DNA of 64,000 nt, from contig CANIAL010000006.1 in assembly GCA_947465395.1 (NCBI GenBank), forward strand, positions 62,001 through 126,000, written 5' to 3'. Below, piece after piece: positions 23,688-62,321 of the stretch (the stretch's first letter is position 1; each line of letters begins with the position of its first letter). The notes under the pieces were generated by a model, which saw only the letters and a program-made list of their open reading frames with translations, searched no databases and was not told the origin of the DNA. Origin of the DNA: Alphaproteobacteria bacterium (lineage in GTDB: Bacteria; Pseudomonadota; Alphaproteobacteria; Micropepsales; Micropepsaceae). A program made the position numbers and the translations under genes.

Positions 23688-23800
23688 GCTTTGGCTTAAA
23701 ATGGTCCCCTTTGTCGCGCTTTTACCCTGCTTAATCAGATGGTTAACCGGGAACCCGACTGCGGCCGCCCCCACCGTCACAAAAGCTTTGCAGGACTGTG

Positions 23801-24835
23801 ATGTTCCTGAACCGGGGCCTCACGAAACTGGGCCTTGCCGCCCCGTCCCAACAGCTCATGACCGATATCGCCTTGACCGATTATGCCGCCGAAAAAGCCG
23901 GGTCCATGCGTAGAGCCGCCCGTGGCGAACCGCTGTTCCGGGGGCTGACATTTTTGGCCGCCCTGTTCGTGCTGGTGCTGTTCATCGGCGTGATGATCGC
24001 ACTGACCATGGGATCGCTGCCCGCCATCAAGGAATTCGGCCCCGCCTTTCTCTGGACGGAAACCTGGAAGCCAGCGACGGAAAAATTCGGCGCATTCTCC
24101 GCCATTGTCGGCACATTGGTGACCTCGTTCCTGGCCATGCTGGTGGCGTTGCCGGTGGGCATCGGCATCGCGATTTTTCTCACCGAGCTTTGCCCGCGCT
24201 GGCTGCGCCGCCCCATCGGCATTGCCATCGAATTGCTGGCCGGCATTCCGTCCATCATCTACGGCATCTGGGGCCTGTTCGTTTTCGCGCCCTGGTTCCA
24301 GTTGCACCTGCAGGAACCCATCATCGAAGCGTTCGCCAATGTGCCCGTGCTGGGCACGTTGCTGGGCGGCACCGCCTATGGCATCGGCACATTCACAGCG
24401 GGCTTGATCCTGAGCATCATGATCCTGCCCTTTATCGCAGCGGTAACGCGCGATGTTTTCCTCACCGTGCCTTCCATGCTGAAGGAAGCCGCTTACGGGC
24501 TTGGCTGCACCACCTGGGAAGTGATGTGGCAGGTGGTGATCCCGTATGCGCGCACCGGCGTTTTCGGCGGCGCGATGCTGGCCCTGGGCCGGGCGCTGGG
24601 CGAAACCATGGCGGTGACTTTCGTGATCGGCAATGCGCACCGTTTGTCGCCATCCCTGTTCGCGCCGGGCACCAGCATCTCGGCCACCATCGCCAATGAA
24701 TTCACCGAGGCGACCACCGAGCTTTACACCTCGTCGCTGATCACCATGGGCCTGATCCTGTTCTTTATTACCTTCATCGTCCTGGCTACGGCGCAATTGA
24801 TGCTGCGCCGCCTTGAAAAGCAGGCCGGCAAATGA
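23801..24835 (+). CDS. pstC: Phosphate ABC transporter permease PstC
   Basis: Inner-membrane permease half of the high-affinity phosphate importer. A long N-terminal tail is followed by about six membrane helices and the permease signature around [25 protein letters not shown], here [11 protein letters not shown]. The ATG at 23801 follows AGGA by 5 nt; an internal ATG at 23858 is also possible. It overlaps pstA by 4 nt. Upstream there is no pstS, which usually leads this operon. Confidence 0.9.
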
Positions 24836-25686
24836 CCCACCAGATCAACAAAGGGCTTTATGCGCGCCGCCGGATGATCAATGGCGTCTTCCTGTTATTG
24901 TCCACGGGCGCGGCTGTATTCGGCCTGGTCTGGCTGGCCTTCATCCTGGGCGCGCTTCTGAAAGAAGGCGTTCAGGCCCTGTCGCCCACGCTGTTCACGC
25001 TTTCCACGCCGCCGCCGGGAACGCCGGGCGGTCTTGCCAACGCCATCTATGGCAGCGTCACCATGAGCCTGGCCGCGGTCGTTGTGGGAACGCCCATCGG
25101 GCTGATGGCTGGAACATATCTGGCGGAGTATGGCCGCCACACGCGCTTTGCCTTCGTGGTGCGCTTCATCAACGACATTCTCCTCAGCGCGCCGTCTATC
25201 GTCACCGGCCTGTTCATCTATGAAATCCTGGTGCGGCCCATGGGGCACTTCTCAGCTATCGCGGGCGCAGCGTCCTTGGTTGTGATCGTGATCCCGGTGG
25301 TGGTGCGCACCACCGAAAACATGCTGCTGCTGGTTCCCAACGGGCTTCGCGAGGCGGCCTCCGCCCTGGGCGCGCCCGGCAATTTCGTGATCCGCTCCGT
25401 CACCTGGAAGGCGGCGCAGGCCGGCATCGTCACCGGCGTGCTCTTGGCGGTGGCGCGCATTTCCGGCGAAACCGCGCCGCTGCTTTTCACGTCACTGAAC
25501 AACCAGTTCTTCAACACCGGCTTCACCACGCCCATGGCGTCGCTGCCGGTGGTGATCTTCCAGTATGCGCTGTCGCCCTATGACGACTGGCATGCGCTGG
25601 CCTGGGCGGGCGCGCTGCTGGTCACCGCCACGGTTCTTACGCTTTCGATCATCGCGCGGGTTTTGGAAAACAGGCAACGGAATTGA
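24832..25686 (+). CDS. pstA: Phosphate ABC transporter permease PstA
   Basis: Second permease subunit, 284 residues, about six helices. Recognisable parts are [40 protein letters not shown], the coupling-helix segment [16 protein letters not shown] and [14 protein letters not shown]. The ATG overlaps the pstC stop and the stop overlaps the pstB start, indicating one operon. Confidence 0.94.
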
Positions 25687-26489
25687 TGCAAATGGACACG
25701 ATGACAGCACCCGCCGCGACCGCCGCACATGGTGCGCCCAAGACCAAGATCAACATCCAGGATCTTTGCTTCTATTACGGCGCTTCCAAGGCGCTGAAGG
25801 GCATTTCCCTGCCCATCCATGACCGCAAGGTCACAGCCTTTATCGGCCCGTCCGGCTGCGGCAAGTCCACCTTGCTGCGCGCCATCAACCGCATCTACGA
25901 GCTTTATCCCAACCAGCGTGCCGAAGGCCTGGTGGAAATGGACGGCGAAAATGTGCTGCTGGCCAAGGACCTCAATCTGCTGCGCGCCCGCATTGGCATG
26001 GTTTTCCAGAAGCCCACGCCGTTTCCCATGTCCATCTATGACAATGTGGCGTTCGGCATCCGCCTTTATGAACGCCTGCCCAAGTCCGAGCTGGAGGGCC
26101 GCATTGAAAGCGCGCTCACCCGCGCCGCGCTATGGGGCGAAGTGAAGGACAAGCTGAACGCCTCGGGCCTTTCGCTCTCGGGCGGCCAGCAGCAGCGTCT
26201 CTGCATCGCCCGCACCGTGGCGACGCGGCCCGAAGTGATTTTATTGGACGAGCCTTGCTCGGCGCTGGACCCGATTTCCACGGCGCGTATCGAGGAGCTG
26301 ATTGACGAACTGGCCGCCGACTACACCATCGTGATGGTGACCCATAACATGCAGCAGGCCAGCCGCGCTTCCGACTATACCGCCTTCATGTATCTGGGCG
26401 AGCTGGTGGAATATGGCGCCACGGAAAAAATCTTCACCGCGCCCGCCAATCGCCAGACCGAGCAGTACATAACAGGCAGGTTTGGTTAG
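25686..26489 (+). CDS. pstB: Phosphate ABC transporter ATP-binding protein PstB
   Basis: ATPase of the Pst importer. Walker [13 protein letters not shown] near 56, the PstB-type [21 protein letters not shown], signature [14 protein letters not shown] and Walker [14 protein letters not shown] are intact. ATG at 25686 shares its A with the pstA stop. 267 residues. No phoU, phoB or phoR follows; the next gene is convergent and shares TTAG for both stops. A substrate-binding PstS must be encoded elsewhere if the system is functional. Confidence 0.96.
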
Positions 26490-28054
26490 ACGTAATCGGC
26501 GGCGAGGGTTTCATCGCGGCGCGGACTTTTGTCCGTCGCGTTGAACAACAGGCTCAAGACGACGCCCACCGCCAAATTCAGCGCCAGTGCGCTCAGGGCC
26601 GCATAGCATGGCACCGTTATCCCGAATATGTGCAGCGCATAGATGGAGCTTTTGAAGCCCAGGCTCCAGGCCATGGCAGTGCCCGCTGCGATGCCGCTGA
26701 CCAGCCCCGCCAGAAGCGCCATGGGATGGAACCAGCGCGTGAACAGCGCGATCAGCACCGGCGGCACGGTCTGGCAGATCCAGATGCCGCCCAGGAGTTG
26801 CAGCTCGATGGCATAGGTGCTTTGCAATTCCAGCACGAACACCAATGCCGCCAGCTTGGCGCAAAGCGAAACCAGCTTGGCCACCCGCGCTTCGGATTGC
26901 GGCGAACAGTCGAGCGCGATCCAGGCCTTGTAGATATTGCGGGTGAAAAGATTGCCGCAGGCGATCGCCATGATGGCGGCCGGCACCAGCGCACCGATGG
27001 CGATGGCGGCAAAGGCGATGCCCGCGAACCAGTTGGGGAACATGGTCAGGAACAGCGCCGGCACCGCGAAATTGTTGCCGAAACGGTCAAAGCCGCCGGC
27101 ATATTGCGGCATGGCGCGCACGCCCGCCGCAATGGCCATGAAACCCAGCAGCGCGATCAGCGCCAGGGCAAAGGAATAGGCGGGCAGGATGATAGCGTTG
27201 CGCTCCACCACCTTGCGGCTGGAGGCGGACAGCATGCCCGTCAGGGCATGGGGATACAGGAACAGCGCCAGCACCGATCCAAAGGCCAGGCTGGAATAGG
27301 CAAAGCCCGCGCCCAGATTGCTTGATGTGCCTTTCGCCAGGATCAGTTTTTCCGGCGCCACGGCGGCGAAAATCTTGGCATAGCCGCCCAGCTCGATGGG
27401 AATGATCACGATGGCCGCGATCACGGTGGCGTAGACCAGCATGTCTTTCACGATGGCGATCAGCGCAGTGCCGCGAAGGCCGCTGGAATAGGTGTAAAGC
27501 GCCAGCACCAAAAATGCGATCAAGAGCGGCAGATTGGGAATCACATCCAGCCCCGGCAGGGACTGGATGCCCAGGGCCGCGATCACCACCTGAAGCCCCA
27601 GCAGCTGCAGCGCGATATAGGGAATGGTGGCCATGATGCCGGTCAGCGCCACGGCCAGGGCCAGACTGCGGCTGCCGAAACGGCCGCGCACGAAATCCGC
27701 AGCGGTGACATAGCCGTGACGGCTGGCGACCGACCATAGCCGCGCAAAGCCCACGAACAAAAGCGGATAGGCCAGCATGCCATAGGGGATGGCGAAAAAG
27801 CCGGTGGCGCCCGCGCCAAACATCAATGCGGGGACGGCCACGAATGTGTAGGCGGTATAGAGATCGCCGCCCAGAAGAAACCAGGCGATCAAGGTGCCGA
27901 ACCTGCGCCCGCCCAGGCCCCATTCGGTCAGCTGCGAAAGATCGCCCTTGCGCCAGCGAGCCGCCAGCAGGCCCAGGCCGGTGACCAGCGCGAACAGAAG
28001 AAAGAAAACGGTCAAGGTGACAGGATCGGACTTGATCCCCGAAATCGCCGGCAT
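26486..28054 (-). CDS. Sodium:solute symporter, monocarboxylate permease-like
   Basis: SSS-family transporter of 522 residues with about 13 membrane helices. The start [30 protein letters not shown] and [12 protein letters not shown] strongly resemble the MctP group, which takes up lactate, pyruvate and alanine in rhizobia. The substrate is inferred from family likeness only. It stands alone, with the tandem porins downstream in orientation (upstream in coordinates) and pstB convergent. Confidence 0.82.
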
Positions 28055-28130: not shown

Positions 28131-29729
28131 CTAGAAAGTAACTTGCGAGCGCAGCGCGACGGCCTGGAAATGCTGGCCGACTTCCGTGTCCGCGATTGCC
28201 GGGGTGCCGAGCGTTCCCAGCCGGTGGACGGTGACGTCCTGACCCTGCAGGGTGAATTTTACCACCGGGTTGATGTACCAGTTGACGCCCAATGTGGCGA
28301 TATCCTGTGTGCCGCCGCGCACGCCGTCCACGGGCATGGCGCTGCCCGCCATACCGGGATGGTCGTTGAAATCCATGTTGCTGTAGCGGGCCGCGATTTC
28401 CCAGGCGCCGATGCCGCCTTCGCCGAAATTGTGGCCGGGGCGGGGGCCGGTAAAGACGGCGTTGCCGGGATTCCAGCCATGCCGTTCGCCGGTCAGAAGA
28501 TAGGACGCCTCCAGGTAATAGCCGCCAAAGCCATATGCATTGCTGCTGGCCCGGTCCTTGACCCCGAATTTGAAATAACCGCCTTGCGCGTAAAAGCTGC
28601 GCCAGGTGATGCCGCTTTCCAGATTGACCGCCCAGGCATTGTCCACGTTCAGCGCGCCCGCCGAGACCAGCTTGATGGCCTGTGTGTCCACTGCCAGCTC
28701 GGGCGACGAAGCAAAGGTTATCAGGCGCGGCGAATTGGCGGCGGCGGTCTGGTCCGGCCCGCGCACAATATCGGTGACGGCGCTGGAAATCACAAAGCGC
28801 GTGTCCTTGTCCGTGTAGAGCGTGTAGCCGACGCGCCCCACCACGGCCAGTTGCTCGTCAAAGGCGCCGGCCTCCTGCACCTTGCCGCCCGATACCGACA
28901 GGGCGCCGTAAAGATTGCGGCCCGCGTAAATGATGCTGGCCGTCTCGCGCACGCCACCCGCCATGGCGCGCTGCACATCGGCGGCCGAGCCGCGCTCCAG
29001 GAACAGCATGTCGCCGCCCGCCGTGGCGTCGGCCAGGCCGGCGGGCGGCGATGATGCGCCCAGGCGGAAGGTCCAGTCCGGCACGCCGTTATAATCCACG
29101 ATCATGCGGCGGATGGAGCCTGGTGTCTCAACGCCGCCGCCGCCGAAATCCACGATCGCGGCATAGGACCAGTCGCCAAAGACATTTCCCTGAAGCCCGA
29201 TCTGGGCGCGGCGAAAATTTGCGCCGCTGGAAAGATCGGGCCCGTTGGCGGCGGCAAGATTGCGCGATGTCGCGGGCTGCATGAAATACGCCATGTCATA
29301 TTGCATGGTCATGCGTAAGGAGGCCGAGAAGCGTCCGTCCGATGACGTCACCATCAGCCGCCCATTGGCGATGCTGGTCTTGGGCATGTCCTGTGTGGCC
29401 AGGCGCTGGGCGTCGGTCTGGGCGGCGAATTTGGCGACCAGCGACTCGATCTTTTGATCCTGCTGTTTCAGGCGCGTTTCCACGACGGGTGCAGAAGTGG
29501 GCGGTGGCGCGGGCGGCATTGGGGCGGATGCGGGCTTGAGCGCCCGGGTCAGATCGCTGATTTCCTTGCGCTGGGCTTCGATCTGGCCCTGCTGGCGCTC
29601 GATCATTTTCTGCATCTGGTCCAGCCGCCGGGCGATGGCCGCGTCGTCTGCAAAAGCAGGCGCGCAAAATTCCAGCAGCGCGCAAATGCCCGCCGCACCC
29701 TTCAGGACTTTGATGAAATGGCCCCGCAT
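28131..29729 (-). CDS. OprP/OprO-like outer-membrane porin (copy 1)
   Basis: Signal peptide (to about FADD at residue 29), then a predicted coiled coil (ARRLDQMQKMIERQQGQIEAQ, here in part), a Pro/Ala linker and a beta-barrel of the phosphate-selective porin O/P type with NFRRAQIGLQGNVFGDWSYA. The last residue is Phe (SQVTF), as expected for assembly by BAM. 532 residues. A GGGGGA site precedes the ATG. It is a tandem paralogue of the next gene. OprP/O homology suggests anion uptake; specificity is unproven. Confidence 0.82.
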   Translation of the reverse strand: MRGHFIKVLKGAAGICALLEFCAPAFADDAAIARRLDQMQKMIERQQGQIEAQRKEISDLTRALKPASAPMPPAPPPTSAPVVETRLKQQDQKIESLVAKFAAQTDAQRLATQDMPKTSIANGRLMVTSSDGRFSASLRMTMQYDMAYFMQPATSRNLAAANGPDLSSGANFRRAQIGLQGNVFGDWSYAAIVDFGGGGVETPGSIRRMIVDYNGVPDWTFRLGASSPPAGLADATAGGDMLFLERGSAADVQRAMAGGVRETASIIYAGRNLYGALSVSGGKVQEAGAFDEQLAVVGRVGYTLYTDKDTRFVISSAVTDIVRGPDQTAAANSPRLITFASSPELAVDTQAIKLVSAGALNVDNAWAVNLESGITWRSFYAQGGYFKFGVKDRASSNAYGFGGYYLEASYLLTGERHGWNPGNAVFTGPRPGHNFGEGGIGAWEIAARYSNMDFNDHPGMAGSAMPVDGVRGGTQDIATLGVNWYINPVVKFTLQGQDVTVHRLGTLGTPAIADTEVGQHFQAVALRSQVTF

Positions 29730-29849: not shown

Positions 29850-31466
29850 CTAGAAAGCGATCTGGGAGCGGAACGCCACGGTATTGAAACGCTGGTTCTG
29901 GTTGAAATTGGGCGTGGCCACCGTGCCCGCGGGCGAGCCGGGGGCGATATTGTCGCCGATGCGGCTGACCTGGGTGTTCTGGAGTTGCAGGGCGAATTTC
30001 AGCGCCGTGTTGGGATACCAGTTCAGGCCCAACGTGGCGATATCCTGCTTGCCGCCGCGCATACCGCCGGCGGGCAAGGCGCTGCCCGCCACGCCTTCAT
30101 GGTCGTTGAGGTTCAGGCTGGAAAAGCGCGCCGCGACTTCCCAGGCGCCGAACCCGCCTTCCGACGAGAAATTGATGCGGGGACGGGGCGAGGTGAAAGC
30201 GCCATTGGCGGCGGACCAGCCGCGCGCTTCACCCGTCAGGACCCAGGCGGCTTCCGCATACCAGCCGTCAAAGCCAAACCCGCGCAGGGTGGCGACGCCG
30301 CGCTGGTCCATGCCGTATTTGAAATAGCCGGCCTGGGCCAGGACGCTTTGATAGGTGACGGCGCTTTCCAGATTCCAGTTCCAGGCATCGGTGGCGTTGG
30401 CCAGGGCGGCGGAAACAAACTTGGTGCTGTTGTCGTCCACGATGATTTCGGGCGGATTGGAAATGGTGAAGGGCCGGGCTGATGCCGACAGCGAACCGGT
30501 ATCGGCGGGTTTGTAGACATAAGTCCCAGCGCCGCTGATCACCCAGCGCCAGTCATTGTTCACGAATGGCGTGTAGGCCACGCGCGCCACCACCGCCTGC
30601 TGTTCATCAAAAGCGGATGTGGCCTGCACCTTGTCGCCGGTATAGGCCAGTGAAGCGAAAAGGTCGGTGCCGGTATAAAGCACCTCGACCGAATCGCGCC
30701 CGTCGCCGCCCGCCATGTTGCGCGCGGCGTCGCCGGGGCTGGAGCGTTCCAGGAAAATGGAATCGGTGGCGGCATAGGAATCATCAAGACCCGTGGACGG
30801 CGGATGCGCCCCGATGCGGAAGGCGAACGGCGCCAGCCCGTCATATTCCAGATAGGCCTGCTGGATATGGCCCGGCGTCTCGGTGCCGGTGGAGCCGCCC
30901 GAGCCATAATCCATGTTGAAGTAATAGGACCAGTCGCCGAAGATTTTTCCCTGCAGCCCGATCTGGGCCCGGCGGAAATTGCTGCCACTGGAAAGATCGG
31001 GTCCCAGGGACAGCGTGCGCGCGCGCGCACCTTGCATGTAATAGCCCATGTCATACTGGCCCGTCAGGCGCAGCGCGGCGCTGAAACGGCCATCGGCGGA
31101 GGCGACAGAGAGGCGGCCATTGGTGACGCTGGTCTGGGGCGCTTCCTGCACGGCCAGGCGCTGGCTGTCGGCCTGCGCTGCAAATGTTTTCACCAGCGCG
31201 TCAATCTTCTGGTTCTGCTGTACCAGATGCGTTTCCACTGCTGCTGGCGGCGGCGCGGCGGGTTCGACGGCGGCAGGCGATGCGCCGTGAAGTTGCGAAT
31301 TGAGTGTGGTGATTTCCTTTTTCTGGGATTCGATCTCGCGCTGCTGGCGCTCGATCATGCGCTGCATGCGGTCCAGGCGGCGGCCGATCTCGGCATCATC
31401 TGCAAGCGCAGGCAGCGCCATGGATGCAAGCGTGGCACCGGAAAGAAGGAGAATCCGCAAGCGCAT
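29850..31466 (-). CDS. OprP/OprO-like outer-membrane porin (copy 2)
   Basis: 538-residue paralogue of the porin at 28131-29729 with the same layout: signal peptide ending near PALADDAE, coiled coil RRLDRMQRMIERQQREIES, linker, and a barrel with FRRAQIGLQGKIFGDWSYYFN, ending in SQIAF. It begins only 10 nt after modA, so modA and this porin form one unit. That linkage suggests an oxyanion substrate (molybdate, tungstate or similar), which is inference. Porin copy 1 follows after 120 nt and may have its own promoter. Confidence 0.82.
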   Translation of the reverse strand: MRLRILLLSGATLASMALPALADDAEIGRRLDRMQRMIERQQREIESQKKEITTLNSQLHGASPAAVEPAAPPPAAVETHLVQQNQKIDALVKTFAAQADSQRLAVQEAPQTSVTNGRLSVASADGRFSAALRLTGQYDMGYYMQGARARTLSLGPDLSSGSNFRRAQIGLQGKIFGDWSYYFNMDYGSGGSTGTETPGHIQQAYLEYDGLAPFAFRIGAHPPSTGLDDSYAATDSIFLERSSPGDAARNMAGGDGRDSVEVLYTGTDLFASLAYTGDKVQATSAFDEQQAVVARVAYTPFVNNDWRWVISGAGTYVYKPADTGSLSASARPFTISNPPEIIVDDNSTKFVSAALANATDAWNWNLESAVTYQSVLAQAGYFKYGMDQRGVATLRGFGFDGWYAEAAWVLTGEARGWSAANGAFTSPRPRINFSSEGGFGAWEVAARFSSLNLNDHEGVAGSALPAGGMRGGKQDIATLGLNWYPNTALKFALQLQNTQVSRIGDNIAPGSPAGTVATPNFNQNQRFNTVAFRSQIAF

Positions 31467-31476
31467 GGATTAAGTC

Positions 31477-32256
31477 CTACTTGGAAAGAACGGTGAAGCC
31501 CAGTTTCTCGAACACCGCTTTTGCGGTGGGTGAAGAAAGAAAGGCCAGGAAAGCGCGCGCATCGGCGGTGGGCGCGGCGCCGGGATTCTTCACCAATGCG
31601 GCGGGATACAGGATGGGCTGGTGGCTGTTTTCAGGAAACACGCCGACTACCCGCACATTGGGTTCGGCCTTGGCGTCGGTTTCATAGACGATGCCCAGCG
31701 GCGCTTCGCCCCGCGCCACATAGGACAATGCCACGCGCACATTTTCCGCATTGACCAGATGATTGACCACGCTGTTCCACACGCCCAGCGATGTCAGCGC
31801 GGTGCGGCCATATTTTCCCGCCGGCACCGAATCCGGATCGGCCATGGAAAGGCGCCCGCCTTTCAGCGCCCCGGCCAGGTCGAAATGCGGCGCGATGGTC
31901 ACTTGCGTGTTCACATCCTTGGAGGCAACCAGAACAAGCTTGTTGCCCAACAGGTTGACCCGGCTGTCCGACAGCACCAGCCCGCGCTGGTCCAGGTAAT
32001 CCATCCAGTCCAGGTCGGCGGAAATGAAAATGTCCGCGCCGCCGGATGATTCAATCTGGCGCGCCAGCGCCGAAGACGCGGCCAGTGACGCCACCGCGGT
32101 CTTGCCGGTCTGCTTGTTGAAGGCGGCGGTCAATTCCTTCATGGCGTCGGCCAGGGACGCGGCGGCGAACACCGTCACATCGGCGGCCATGGCCGCGCCG
32201 CTGAGCGACAGCGTGATGCCCAGCACCAGTGCCAGAATGGAGACGCGATTTTTCAT
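31477..32256 (-). CDS. modA: Molybdate ABC transporter substrate-binding protein ModA (orphan)
   Basis: Periplasmic binding protein of 259 residues with a signal peptide cleaved near AMAAD. Family motifs: VTVFAAASLADAMKELT, SSALARQIESSGGADIFISAD and ADPDSVPAGKYGRTAL with the oxyanion ligands. No modB or modC is in the window, and the downstream gene is a porin. A divergent ModE-type regulator and a dyad lie upstream. It could supply a permease encoded elsewhere. Confidence 0.9.
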   Translation of the reverse strand: MKNRVSILALVLGITLSLSGAAMAADVTVFAAASLADAMKELTAAFNKQTGKTAVASLAASSALARQIESSGGADIFISADLDWMDYLDQRGLVLSDSRVNLLGNKLVLVASKDVNTQVTIAPHFDLAGALKGGRLSMADPDSVPAGKYGRTALTSLGVWNSVVNHLVNAENVRVALSYVARGEAPLGIVYETDAKAEPNVRVVGVFPENSHQPILYPAALVKNPGAAPTADARAFLAFLSSPTAKAVFEKLGFTVLSK

Positions 32257-32265
32257 GGGACCCCC

Positions 32266-32287
32266 GTGATATCCGTTCCAATATCAT
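32266..32287. promoter_or_regulatory. Candidate operator dyad between modA and the ModE-type gene
   Basis: TGATAT (32267-32272) and ATATCA (32281-32286) form a perfect dyad with 8-nt spacing, 11 nt upstream of the modA start and about 58 nt before the regulator gene. ModE sites are AT-rich dyads of similar build, though not of this exact sequence. Autoregulation and modA control are plausible. Confidence 0.45.
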
Positions 32288-32344
32288 GCCCAATTACCCA
32301 GCAAAAGCCTTGCCCTTGCGATAGTGCCAGCGTCAGGATGCCTC

Positions 32345-32692
32345 ATGGAGAAGCTGTTTATTCGCATACCCATCACCGATTCCGCGCCGGTGGGGCCGGG
32401 CAAGACCCAGCTTCTGGAACTGGTGGCTGAGACAGGCTCCATCCGGTCCGCCGCCATCAAGATGAAGTTGAGCTACCGGCGGGCCTGGATGCTGCTGGCC
32501 GAAATGGAAAAAAGCTTTGGTGCACCCGTGCTGGCGCGGCAGACGGGCGGCAAGCGCGGCGGCGGGGCGCAACTGACCCCGCTGGGGGCCGATATCGTCA
32601 AGCATTTCCGCGCTGCGGAGCGCGCCGCCATCAAGGCTATCCAGCCCGAACTGGTGGCGCTCAACCGGTTGAAGAAGCGTGGCCCCGTCTAA
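32345..32692 (+). CDS. ModE-type winged-helix regulator (DNA-binding domain only)
   Basis: A 115-residue LysR-like winged helix as in the N-terminal half of ModE: LLELVAETGSIRSAAIKMKLSYRRAWMLLAEMEKSFGAPV and TGGKRGGGAQLTPLGADIV. The C-terminal molbindin domains that bind molybdate are absent, as in many alphaproteobacterial short ModE proteins. ATG at 32345; an earlier in-frame start adds seven poor residues. Divergent from modA, which it probably controls. Confidence 0.87.
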   Translation: MEKLFIRIPITDSAPVGPGKTQLLELVAETGSIRSAAIKMKLSYRRAWMLLAEMEKSFGAPVLARQTGGKRGGGAQLTPLGADIVKHFRAAERAAIKAIQPELVALNRLKKRGPV

Positions 32693-61164: not shown

Positions 61165-62321
61165 AGCTTGAAATGCACAAAGCCCGCATCCATCAAAAGG
61201 CGCGGTGAGCCGTTATAGAATGCGCCTGCTGCGCGGGCATAATTAAAACGCTGCCAGCCAATGGTCAGTTTGAGATTGGGCGTGATGGTGCGGGCCAGCG
61301 CAAGCTCTGCCCCTTCCAGTTCCATGTGCGGCAAGCCCGCCGCCGTCACCGCGCCCGCAATGCCGCCGCCATATTGCGCGGATGCCAGCCAGGCGCCCCA
61401 GTTCACGCCAGCGCCCAACTCGTAGGCATTGGTGGTGGCCGCCTGCCAGGCATTGTGAATGTCAAAGGCGTAGGCGTTGCTTTGCCGCCAGGAACCGCCC
61501 AGTGAAACCGTCACATCATCGTTCAACGGATAATCAACCCGCGCGCCCGCGCCGATATCGCTGACGCCTTCCTGCCCCGGCAATTTGAGTTCGGCCCGGC
61601 CTTCGGCCAGCGCCGCATAAACGGCAACATTGGCGTCGTCCCAGGCAAATGAATAACGCGCCGAGGCTTCCCAGATATCGGCCTGGCGTCCCGGCACATG
61701 GGGACCAGCGCGCAGGAATGGCAGCACGTCTTTTCCTTCGCCGGGCGCAAATGACAGCGCCAGCTCCACACCGAACAAATTGGGGCTTTGATAAGTCAGC
61801 TTGGCGGAATTGGACGATGTCCCCACCTGCGTGGTCAGCGCGAAGACCTGCGCCACCGGCTTGCCGTTGCCAGGATCGCGGAAAAGAAAAATGCGCGGGT
61901 CGGAAAGACTGACATCCTCCTCGGCGCGCGGGCTGCCCACCGGCAGCAAGGCGCCCGCCCCGTCGGTCATGCCCATGCGAAAGGCGCCCAGCCCGGTCTT
62001 CATTTCGCCGTAAGCTTCTTCCCAGACATCGCCGTCGTAGCGCCCCCGCGCCAGCGGGTCGGCCAAGCTGCCGGTGAGATGGCCCGAGATGGAAAGGCCG
62101 CTGTCATAGGACCGGGTAAGGGCGGCCTGGCCCTGCGCGACGCCGGTGGCGTCCACCGTCTTGCCGTTCCAGAAGCCTGCGCCCGAAGCCGTGCCGCCAA
62201 GGGTGAAAACCGACTGCCCGACCGGCAATTCCAGGGGCCTGACGGCATCATCCTGAGCGAAGGCGGGGGCGGCAATCAGGGGGGTGGCCATAAACAGGCC
62301 CCGAACGCCGTATTTGCACAT
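61155..62321 (-). CDS. Outer-membrane beta-barrel protein
   Basis: 388 residues. Signal peptide (LFMATPLIAAPAFAQ), then alternating beta strands with aromatic ends (LSISGHLTGSLADPLARGRYDGD, NLFGVELALSF, KLTIGWQRF), ending FVHFKLHV. The build resembles Gram-negative porins; no solute can be assigned. The start is taken as the ATG at 62321, since the long upstream frame is not conserved-looking. Its end overlaps the ThiE-like gene by 10 nt. Confidence 0.75.
   Translation of the reverse strand: MCKYGVRGLFMATPLIAAPAFAQDDAVRPLELPVGQSVFTLGGTASGAGFWNGKTVDATGVAQGQAALTRSYDSGLSISGHLTGSLADPLARGRYDGDVWEEAYGEMKTGLGAFRMGMTDGAGALLPVGSPRAEEDVSLSDPRIFLFRDPGNGKPVAQVFALTTQVGTSSNSAKLTYQSPNLFGVELALSFAPGEGKDVLPFLRAGPHVPGRQADIWEASARYSFAWDDANVAVYAALAEGRAELKLPGQEGVSDIGAGARVDYPLNDDVTVSLGGSWRQSNAYAFDIHNAWQAATTNAYELGAGVNWGAWLASAQYGGGIAGAVTAAGLPHMELEGAELALARTITPNLKLTIGWQRFNYARAAGAFYNGSPRLLMDAGFVHFKLHV

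Follow-up and report, generated by a model that had tools for sequence, protein, structure and literature searches.

A modA-porin unit with a divergent short ModE gene as the probable front half of a molybdate importer with separate modBC genes in a member of the Micropepsaceae

The stretch of 64,000 nucleotides (nt) analysed here, referred to as the window, covers positions 62,001 to 126,000 of contig CANIAL010000006.1 of an alphaproteobacterium of the family Micropepsaceae (assembly GCA_947465395.1, forward strand). It contains the gene of a periplasmic molybdate-binding protein, modA (31477-32256, minus strand), which is the first gene of a unit shared with the gene of a porin of the Porin_O_P (OprO/OprP) family (29850-31466, minus strand). 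Results of our analysis indicate that this locus is likely to be dedicated to molybdate and ModE-controlled and to encode the outer-membrane and periplasmic components of an importer, the permease and ATPase genes of which, modB and modC, are located elsewhere in the genome. The bacterium probably has its own outer-membrane pore for molybdate, the porin being the proposed entry channel and molybdate the substrate that we infer for it.

In the proposed mechanism, which follows the logic of Escherichia coli ModE, a low level of molybdenum (Mo) would cause a short ModE homologue to release a dyad located before modA, and the modA-porin unit would be transcribed. The porin would pass molybdate through the outer membrane, and ModA, clearly a member of its family, would bind it in the periplasm and dock on ModBC, the genes of which are present on another contig. 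ModBC would then move molybdate into the cytoplasm for the synthesis of molybdenum cofactor (Moco). A joint proposition, the chances of which we consider about even, is that this porin is specialised for molybdate, possibly as the first one recognised, and set by a Mo-type regulator, that the OprP family of this lineage comprises one type per oxyanion (phosphate, sulfate, and molybdate), and that both the phosphate and the molybdate importers are split into a porin with a binding protein and a permease with an ATPase. With a porin gene in one unit with modA behind a ModE-type dyad, and with porin genes next to mod genes in other lineages as well, the passage of molybdate across the outer membrane, for which general pores are usually held responsible, can be tested directly. 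The sister porins linked to the three oxyanions within a single genus make a natural set for studying the tuning of a barrel to its substrate.

ModA, the adjacent porin, and the separate modBC genes

The product of modA passed the molybdate-binding protein models TIGR01256 (199.4 bits vs. cut-off of 62.5) and PRK10677 (255.5 vs. 253). It matched 15 sequences of the Protein Data Bank (PDB), the best of which, 2h5y (E 6e-65), is a molybdate-binding protein; the motifs that correspond to the residues presumably holding molybdate in E. coli ModA align with 2h5y by eye only. The modA stop codon and the ATG of the porin gene are 10 nt apart, and the porin scored 141.8 bits with PF07396 (cut-off of 20.9). 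Thus, the positions of the open reading frames and the family matches bear out an earlier, sequence-only reading of this DNA, in which ModA preceded an OprP-like porin by 10 nt.

A search of the genome (1.77 Mb in 17 contigs, rated 93.5% complete) for SBP_bac_11 proteins returned a single one, the ModA of the window. Likewise, a single ModB scored above the curated cut-off (200.9 bits vs. 182.6). Its gene lies on contig C8 (G000:C8), where modB (231 amino acids, aa) and modC (354 aa; 377.4 bits vs. cut-off of 285.05, with TOBE) share 4 nt, with no binding-protein gene next to them. A second, complete modABC, sought by means of SBP_bac_11 and modB, was not found in this 93.5% complete assembly. 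Since both sides are present in single copies, ModA and the ModBC of C8 are the likely transporter, and ModA would dock on this ModBC. The sequence-only reading had called ModA an orphan and proposed to look for modBC elsewhere; the pair found on C8, with no modA beside it, leaves that description valid for the locus and not for the likely function. Of the two options raised in that reading, the evidence favours an oxyanion route whose permease is encoded elsewhere over a new substrate pairing.

The separation of modA from modBC concerns most of the relatives examined. We classified 40 intact modA loci assigned to the same genus by kinship label; the set excludes the broken copy of G045, as well as G032, G034, G026, and distant ModA-like matches, and some of its loci stop at contig ends. 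No modBC was present nearby in 32 of these loci (orphan modA), while eight had it. Of the 32 genomes with orphan modA, 30 encode a ModB above the cut-off elsewhere, including G009, the modB of which adjoins a second modA; none was detected in G058 and G010. In the 20 modB loci that were inspected, modC was always found beside modB, and two of these loci contain a modA.

Eleven of the 32 orphan loci have a porin gene directly downstream of modA, and the same arrangement occurs in the genome records L096, L099, and L100, as well as in L103, which is cut by a contig end (L097, L098, and L101 are copies of G014, G009, and G022, and L103 and L267 probably represent pieces of a single G034 locus). 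The gap between modA and the porin gene ranges from -4 to 112 nt in 13 loci within or near the genus. In four of ten measured orphan pairs (L040, L041, L043, and L047) the codons of the two genes overlap by 1 or 4 nt, which argues for their co-transcription. Among 71 other loci (L104-L175 minus L121), mostly of other Alphaproteobacteria with modBC adjoining modA, only that of Methyloligella sp. GL2 (L120) has a porin following modA. The pairing goes beyond chance, as it recurs in 11 of the 40 intact loci of the genus and in some other lineages.

The short ModE homologue and its putative operator

The gene divergent from modA (32345-32692, plus strand) encodes a short ModE homologue of 115 aa when read from its ATG, while an alternative GTG start at 32324 gives a longer open reading frame (32324-32692). 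This protein is the only match to the ModE model in the genome. It scored 77.3 bits with TIGR00637, below the curated 98.5, and the match (residues 16-100) corresponds to the DNA-binding domain only; as the molybdate-binding domains, for which the reading frame is too short, are absent, the protein is not a full ModE. The regulator is therefore of the kind that the sequence-only reading had described, namely divergent and restricted to DNA binding.

The intergenic region between modA and the ModE homologue gene contains a dyad, CGTGATAT-N8-ATATCATG (32265-32288, no strand assigned), which 8 nt separate from the start codon of modA. It has one mismatch to the consensus of the genus, CGTGATAT-N8-ATATCACG. 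The latter is equal in length and spacing to the E. coli ModE consensus ATCGNTATATA-N6-TATATANCGAT (PMC545781), with one symmetrical base changed relative to the operator core CGNTATAT-N8-ATATANCG of that consensus. By analogy, the dyad may be regarded as a putative operator at which the short ModE would bind and repress.

To assess the distribution of this box, 39 genomes, chosen for having a ModA match and not at random, were scanned for the dyad and for ModE. With 0-1 mismatch, the consensus was found at 21 sites in 15 of the 39 genomes, 14 of these sites, each in a different genome, being upstream of modA, and the reversed pattern, used as a control, occurred in none of the 39. With 0-3 mismatches, it was present in 17 of 42 modA upstream regions, in 9 of 600 random stretches, and in 1 of 26 regions upstream of modB (that of L060); the three exact dyads among the random stretches are probably real sites. 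The box is present in 13 of the 19 genomes that encode a ModE homologue vs. two of the 20 that do not (Fisher p 2.4e-4, uncorrected for kinship).

The regulator is not always encoded beside modA. In G022, G035, G029, and G050, the short ModE gene directly follows porin-pstS (L210:5154-5525, L275, L281, and L283), and the box is nonetheless located upstream of modA, with none seen in the pst loci of these genomes. In G017, the gene of the ModE homologue (G017:C354:14257-14589) has an in-frame TAG, and the best box upstream of modA (L044) has three mismatches; possibly, the regulator and its site are decaying together.

The remaining seven of the 21 sites are found away from modA, and the box may have a role wider than molybdate transport. 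In G004, where no porin gene adjoins modA, the other exact box is situated between two divergent genes without a Pfam match, of 605 and 343 aa; a Porin_O_P gene follows the 343-aa gene, with which it would share a transcript. The box of G016 is about 540 nt upstream of a gene of a MoCoBD-type molybdoenzyme. In G058 and G029, a box is situated just upstream of a gene of a redoxin/Thioredoxin_10 membrane protein. Two more sites, one in G029 and that of G028, are located past the 3' end of a redoxin/Thioredoxin_10 gene; the G028 site additionally precedes, by some 30 nt, a gene judged by eye to be aldehyde-dehydrogenase-like. The box of G058:C271 has no clear target gene. The boxes at or near redoxin/Thioredoxin_10 (DsbD-like) genes in three genomes (L192:7380, L194:10208 and 8326, and L195:7717) allow one to speculate about a Mo-independent repair route.

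Porin subfamilies and the proposed oxyanion substrate

Two OprO entries and OprP were the only PDB sequences matched by the porin below E 0.1. Its AlphaFold2 model, built from nine sequences, had a mean predicted local distance difference test score (pLDDT) of 60.3 and a predicted template modelling score (pTM) of 0.58, and because of this modest confidence only the fold was used. The best fold matches were OprP and OprO (2o4v and 4rjw, E 1.5e-23), and the model comprises a helical N-terminal part of about 80 residues followed by about 16 longer strands by our own count. In the alignment with OprO, both arginines of the FRRA stretch are kept. At K74, K121, and K126 of OprO, which we take to form the phosphate site (numbering fixed from F62 and D114 of 4rjx), the porin has S, D, and T, so that the presumed site is not preserved. 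A sulfate-linked porin has S, D, and S at the same three positions, and for the pstS-linked porin no PDB sequence was matched at E 0.001; the attempt to deduce the substrate from pore residues was therefore abandoned. The name 'phosphate-selective' is not transferable to the modA-linked porin, and selectivity is not readable from its sequence.

The phylogeny of these porins follows the genes to which they are linked. In a tree of 66 porins (excluding L214-L243, L221 among them, L097, L098, L101, and matches below 250 bits), both porins of the window belong to a modA-linked clade (support 100/99) of 18 rows, 15 of which are modA-linked and three are tandem or contig-cut copies. A pstS-linked clade (100/100) consists of 15 rows and includes all 14 pstS-linked porins, while 22 sulfate-linked porins are inside a group of 29 (91/93), apart from the modA-linked clade. 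A third Porin_O_P gene of this genome directly precedes pstS on contig C14 (the two genes together at L204:7517-10246, minus strand). The genes of phosphate uptake are therefore split like those of molybdate uptake, since porin-pstS is on C14 and pstCAB in the window. In many relatives, a sulfate unit, sbp-cysT-cysW-ATPase, begins with a Porin_O_P gene (L206, L207, L208, L244-L247, L249, L251-L260, L264, L265, L270, and L276); the other four products of this unit (binding protein, CysT, CysW, and ATPase) pass sulfate models in L206/L207. Gene order and tree together suggest that OprP-family porins of this lineage are tied to separate oxyanion importers, as porin-pstS, porin-sbp-cysTWA, and modA-porin.

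It is unlikely that the porin serves as a channel for phosphate or for anions in general and is co-transcribed with modA by chance, with no meaning for the substrate. The pstS-adjacent porin of this genome falls in another clade, for which reason phosphate was set aside as the preferred substrate, and no box with 0-3 mismatches was found in the five pstS-porin loci scanned (L204, L210, L275, L281, and L283). The loss of the three presumed site lysines points weakly in the same direction, given that the sulfate-linked porin lacks them as well. What would fit a chance association is the phosphate name of the Pfam family, the location of pstCAB about 3 kb from the modA-porin unit, and the number of orphan modA loci that manage without a porin (21 of 32). 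However, porins linked to mod genes are also found outside the main clade, in G059, G303, and Methyloligella.

In G059, modABC is accompanied by a divergent porin gene beside modA. This modA has a very long branch on the modA tree, and the porin is probably a separate recruitment, since it is sister (100/99) to the sulfate-linked porin of the same genome. The locus of G303, which represents another family, comprises genes of a short ModE, a small Oxidored_molyb (PF00174) protein, ModA, and a porin, with a box of two mismatches. Its modA-porin pair is convergent with a MocA-like gene, modB (above cut-off), and a short modC (280.6 bits, just below 285.05), and it lies near moaB (above cut-off) and a MoeB/MoaE-type gene. 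The G303 porin groups with the boxed G004 porin and one G003 porin (97/83), near which no box was seen. In Methyloligella sp. GL2, 316 nt separate modA from the porin gene. The L120 and L262 porins are on long branches, and their places in the tree are unsure. The small Oxidored_molyb protein gene of G303 is situated between the box and modA (L262:9924-10436), and a sub-threshold match to the Oxidored_molyb family lies beside modA in G009 (G009:C148:12744-13142).

Quite improbable, in our view, is an assignment of ModA and the porin to another oxyanion, most likely tungstate, or to several together, although tungsten can be bound by ModA (PMC8264917) and ligand preference cannot be read from the two sequences. 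ModA passes the molybdate models and scores 32.3 with the WtpA model, the cut-off of which is 355, and the G303 unit sits among Moco genes. Moreover, the genome has genes for Moco and molybdoenzyme families, namely those of MoeA and MoaC on contig C3 and of one MoCoBD_1 and one Oxidored_molyb protein on contig C5. Its single Molybdopterin-family match is probably NuoG, as it occurs also in relatives without MoeA. The relatives G015, G042, and G046 lack matches to MoeA, MoCoBD_1, and Oxidored_molyb as well as a strong ModA, but have retained porins linked to sulfate or phosphate genes. In G014, modA, the porin, and molybdoenzyme families are present and no MoeA was detected; one missing Moco gene therefore proves little in these assemblies.

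That the locus is a remnant, in which a rearrangement parted modA from modBC and modA fell into disuse, would agree with their separation in most relatives examined and with the broken modA of G045, but it is highly improbable given the intact modA of the 40 classified loci, the conservation of the dyad at a similar place, and the lack of a second SBP_bac_11 protein in this genome.

Several observations weigh against the locus being a dedicated, ModE-controlled front half of a molybdate importer. The ModE encoded here is devoid of sensing domains. Two genomes, G047 and G055, carry the box without a detected ModE, and six have ModE and no box. No box with 0-1 mismatch is present upstream of modBC of this genome, and modBC therefore seems not to be co-regulated. 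Among the seven boxes away from modA, only those of G004 and G016 are at genes easily tied to Mo. Mo can enter the cells by another way in this genus, as G020 and G024 have MoeA and molybdoenzyme families without a ModA or Porin_O_P match. Finally, the porin label requires eight changes on the modA tree, at least six of them on well-supported branches, which, together with the orphan loci devoid of a porin, indicates that the porin is dispensable or replaceable. It is not essential, and its history may be that of an old pairing with repeated loss or that of repeated gain.

Known systems and the neighbourhood of the unit

OprP and OprO of Pseudomonas aeruginosa (2o4v and 4rjw) share with the porin of the window the Pfam family, the fold, and the FRRA arginines. 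In contrast to them, this porin has the helical N-terminal part, lacks the lysines taken for the phosphate site, and is paired with modA and a ModE-type dyad. E. coli ModABC-ModE has the same ModA, ModB, and ModC families and an operator of the same length and spacing (PMC545781); here, however, modA is apart from modBC, the regulator has no molybdate-binding domains, and a porin belongs to the unit. In a review concerning Salmonella, molybdate is thought to cross by diffusion via porins (PMC8264917).

Split mod genes have been described in other bacteria. In Geobacter bemidjiensis, modB1C1 is apart from modA1, as here, but this bacterium keeps an intact modA2B2C2, and no porin link is reported in the consulted parts of that paper (PMC2996986). 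Desulfovibrio has a short, DNA-binding-only ModE, and modA and modBC of D. vulgaris are listed as separate units; the box differs, being CGGTCACG-N14-CGTGACCG and preceding both units, and the consulted parts of the source mention no porin (PMC545781). The nearest published idea that we encountered is that of the secreted ModA of P. aeruginosa with IcmP, in which an outer-membrane protein takes part in molybdate acquisition, as proposed here; unlike the OprP-type porin, IcmP is described as a metalloproteinase, and the system works through type VI secretion (review, PMC8602904). The Fur-controlled psp of Geobacter metallireducens/Desulfuromonas exemplifies a Porin_O_P relative under a metal regulator, although it concerns iron and Fur, and its similarity to the family is weak (PMC545781). 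The 'molybdate channel' of PMC9370521 refers to channeling in plants, and the consulted part of PMC10710014 lists gene categories only. Searches of a library of open-access papers, in which 'ModE' also matches 'mode', yielded no molybdate porin and no OprP-family porin dedicated to molybdate, which does not prove absence.

The sequence-only reading had included neither the dyad nor the second porin gene of the window (28131-29729, minus strand; PF07396, 124.6 bits), which is located in tandem, 120 nt downstream of the first one. Its product, a diverged paralogue, is 53% identical to the first porin and has a long branch in the porin tree; G058 likewise has an extra copy (L036:4197-5765). A tblastn search of plasmid records with two porins returned 34 and 36 records, all below 60% identity. 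Further genes of the neighbourhood, outside the modA-porin unit, are pstC-pstA-pstB without pstS (23798-26489, plus strand; TIGR02138, TIGR00974, and TIGR00972, all above cut-off) and mctP (26486-28054, minus strand). In the relatives, orphan modA is also frequently found near comM, mctP, and pst genes.

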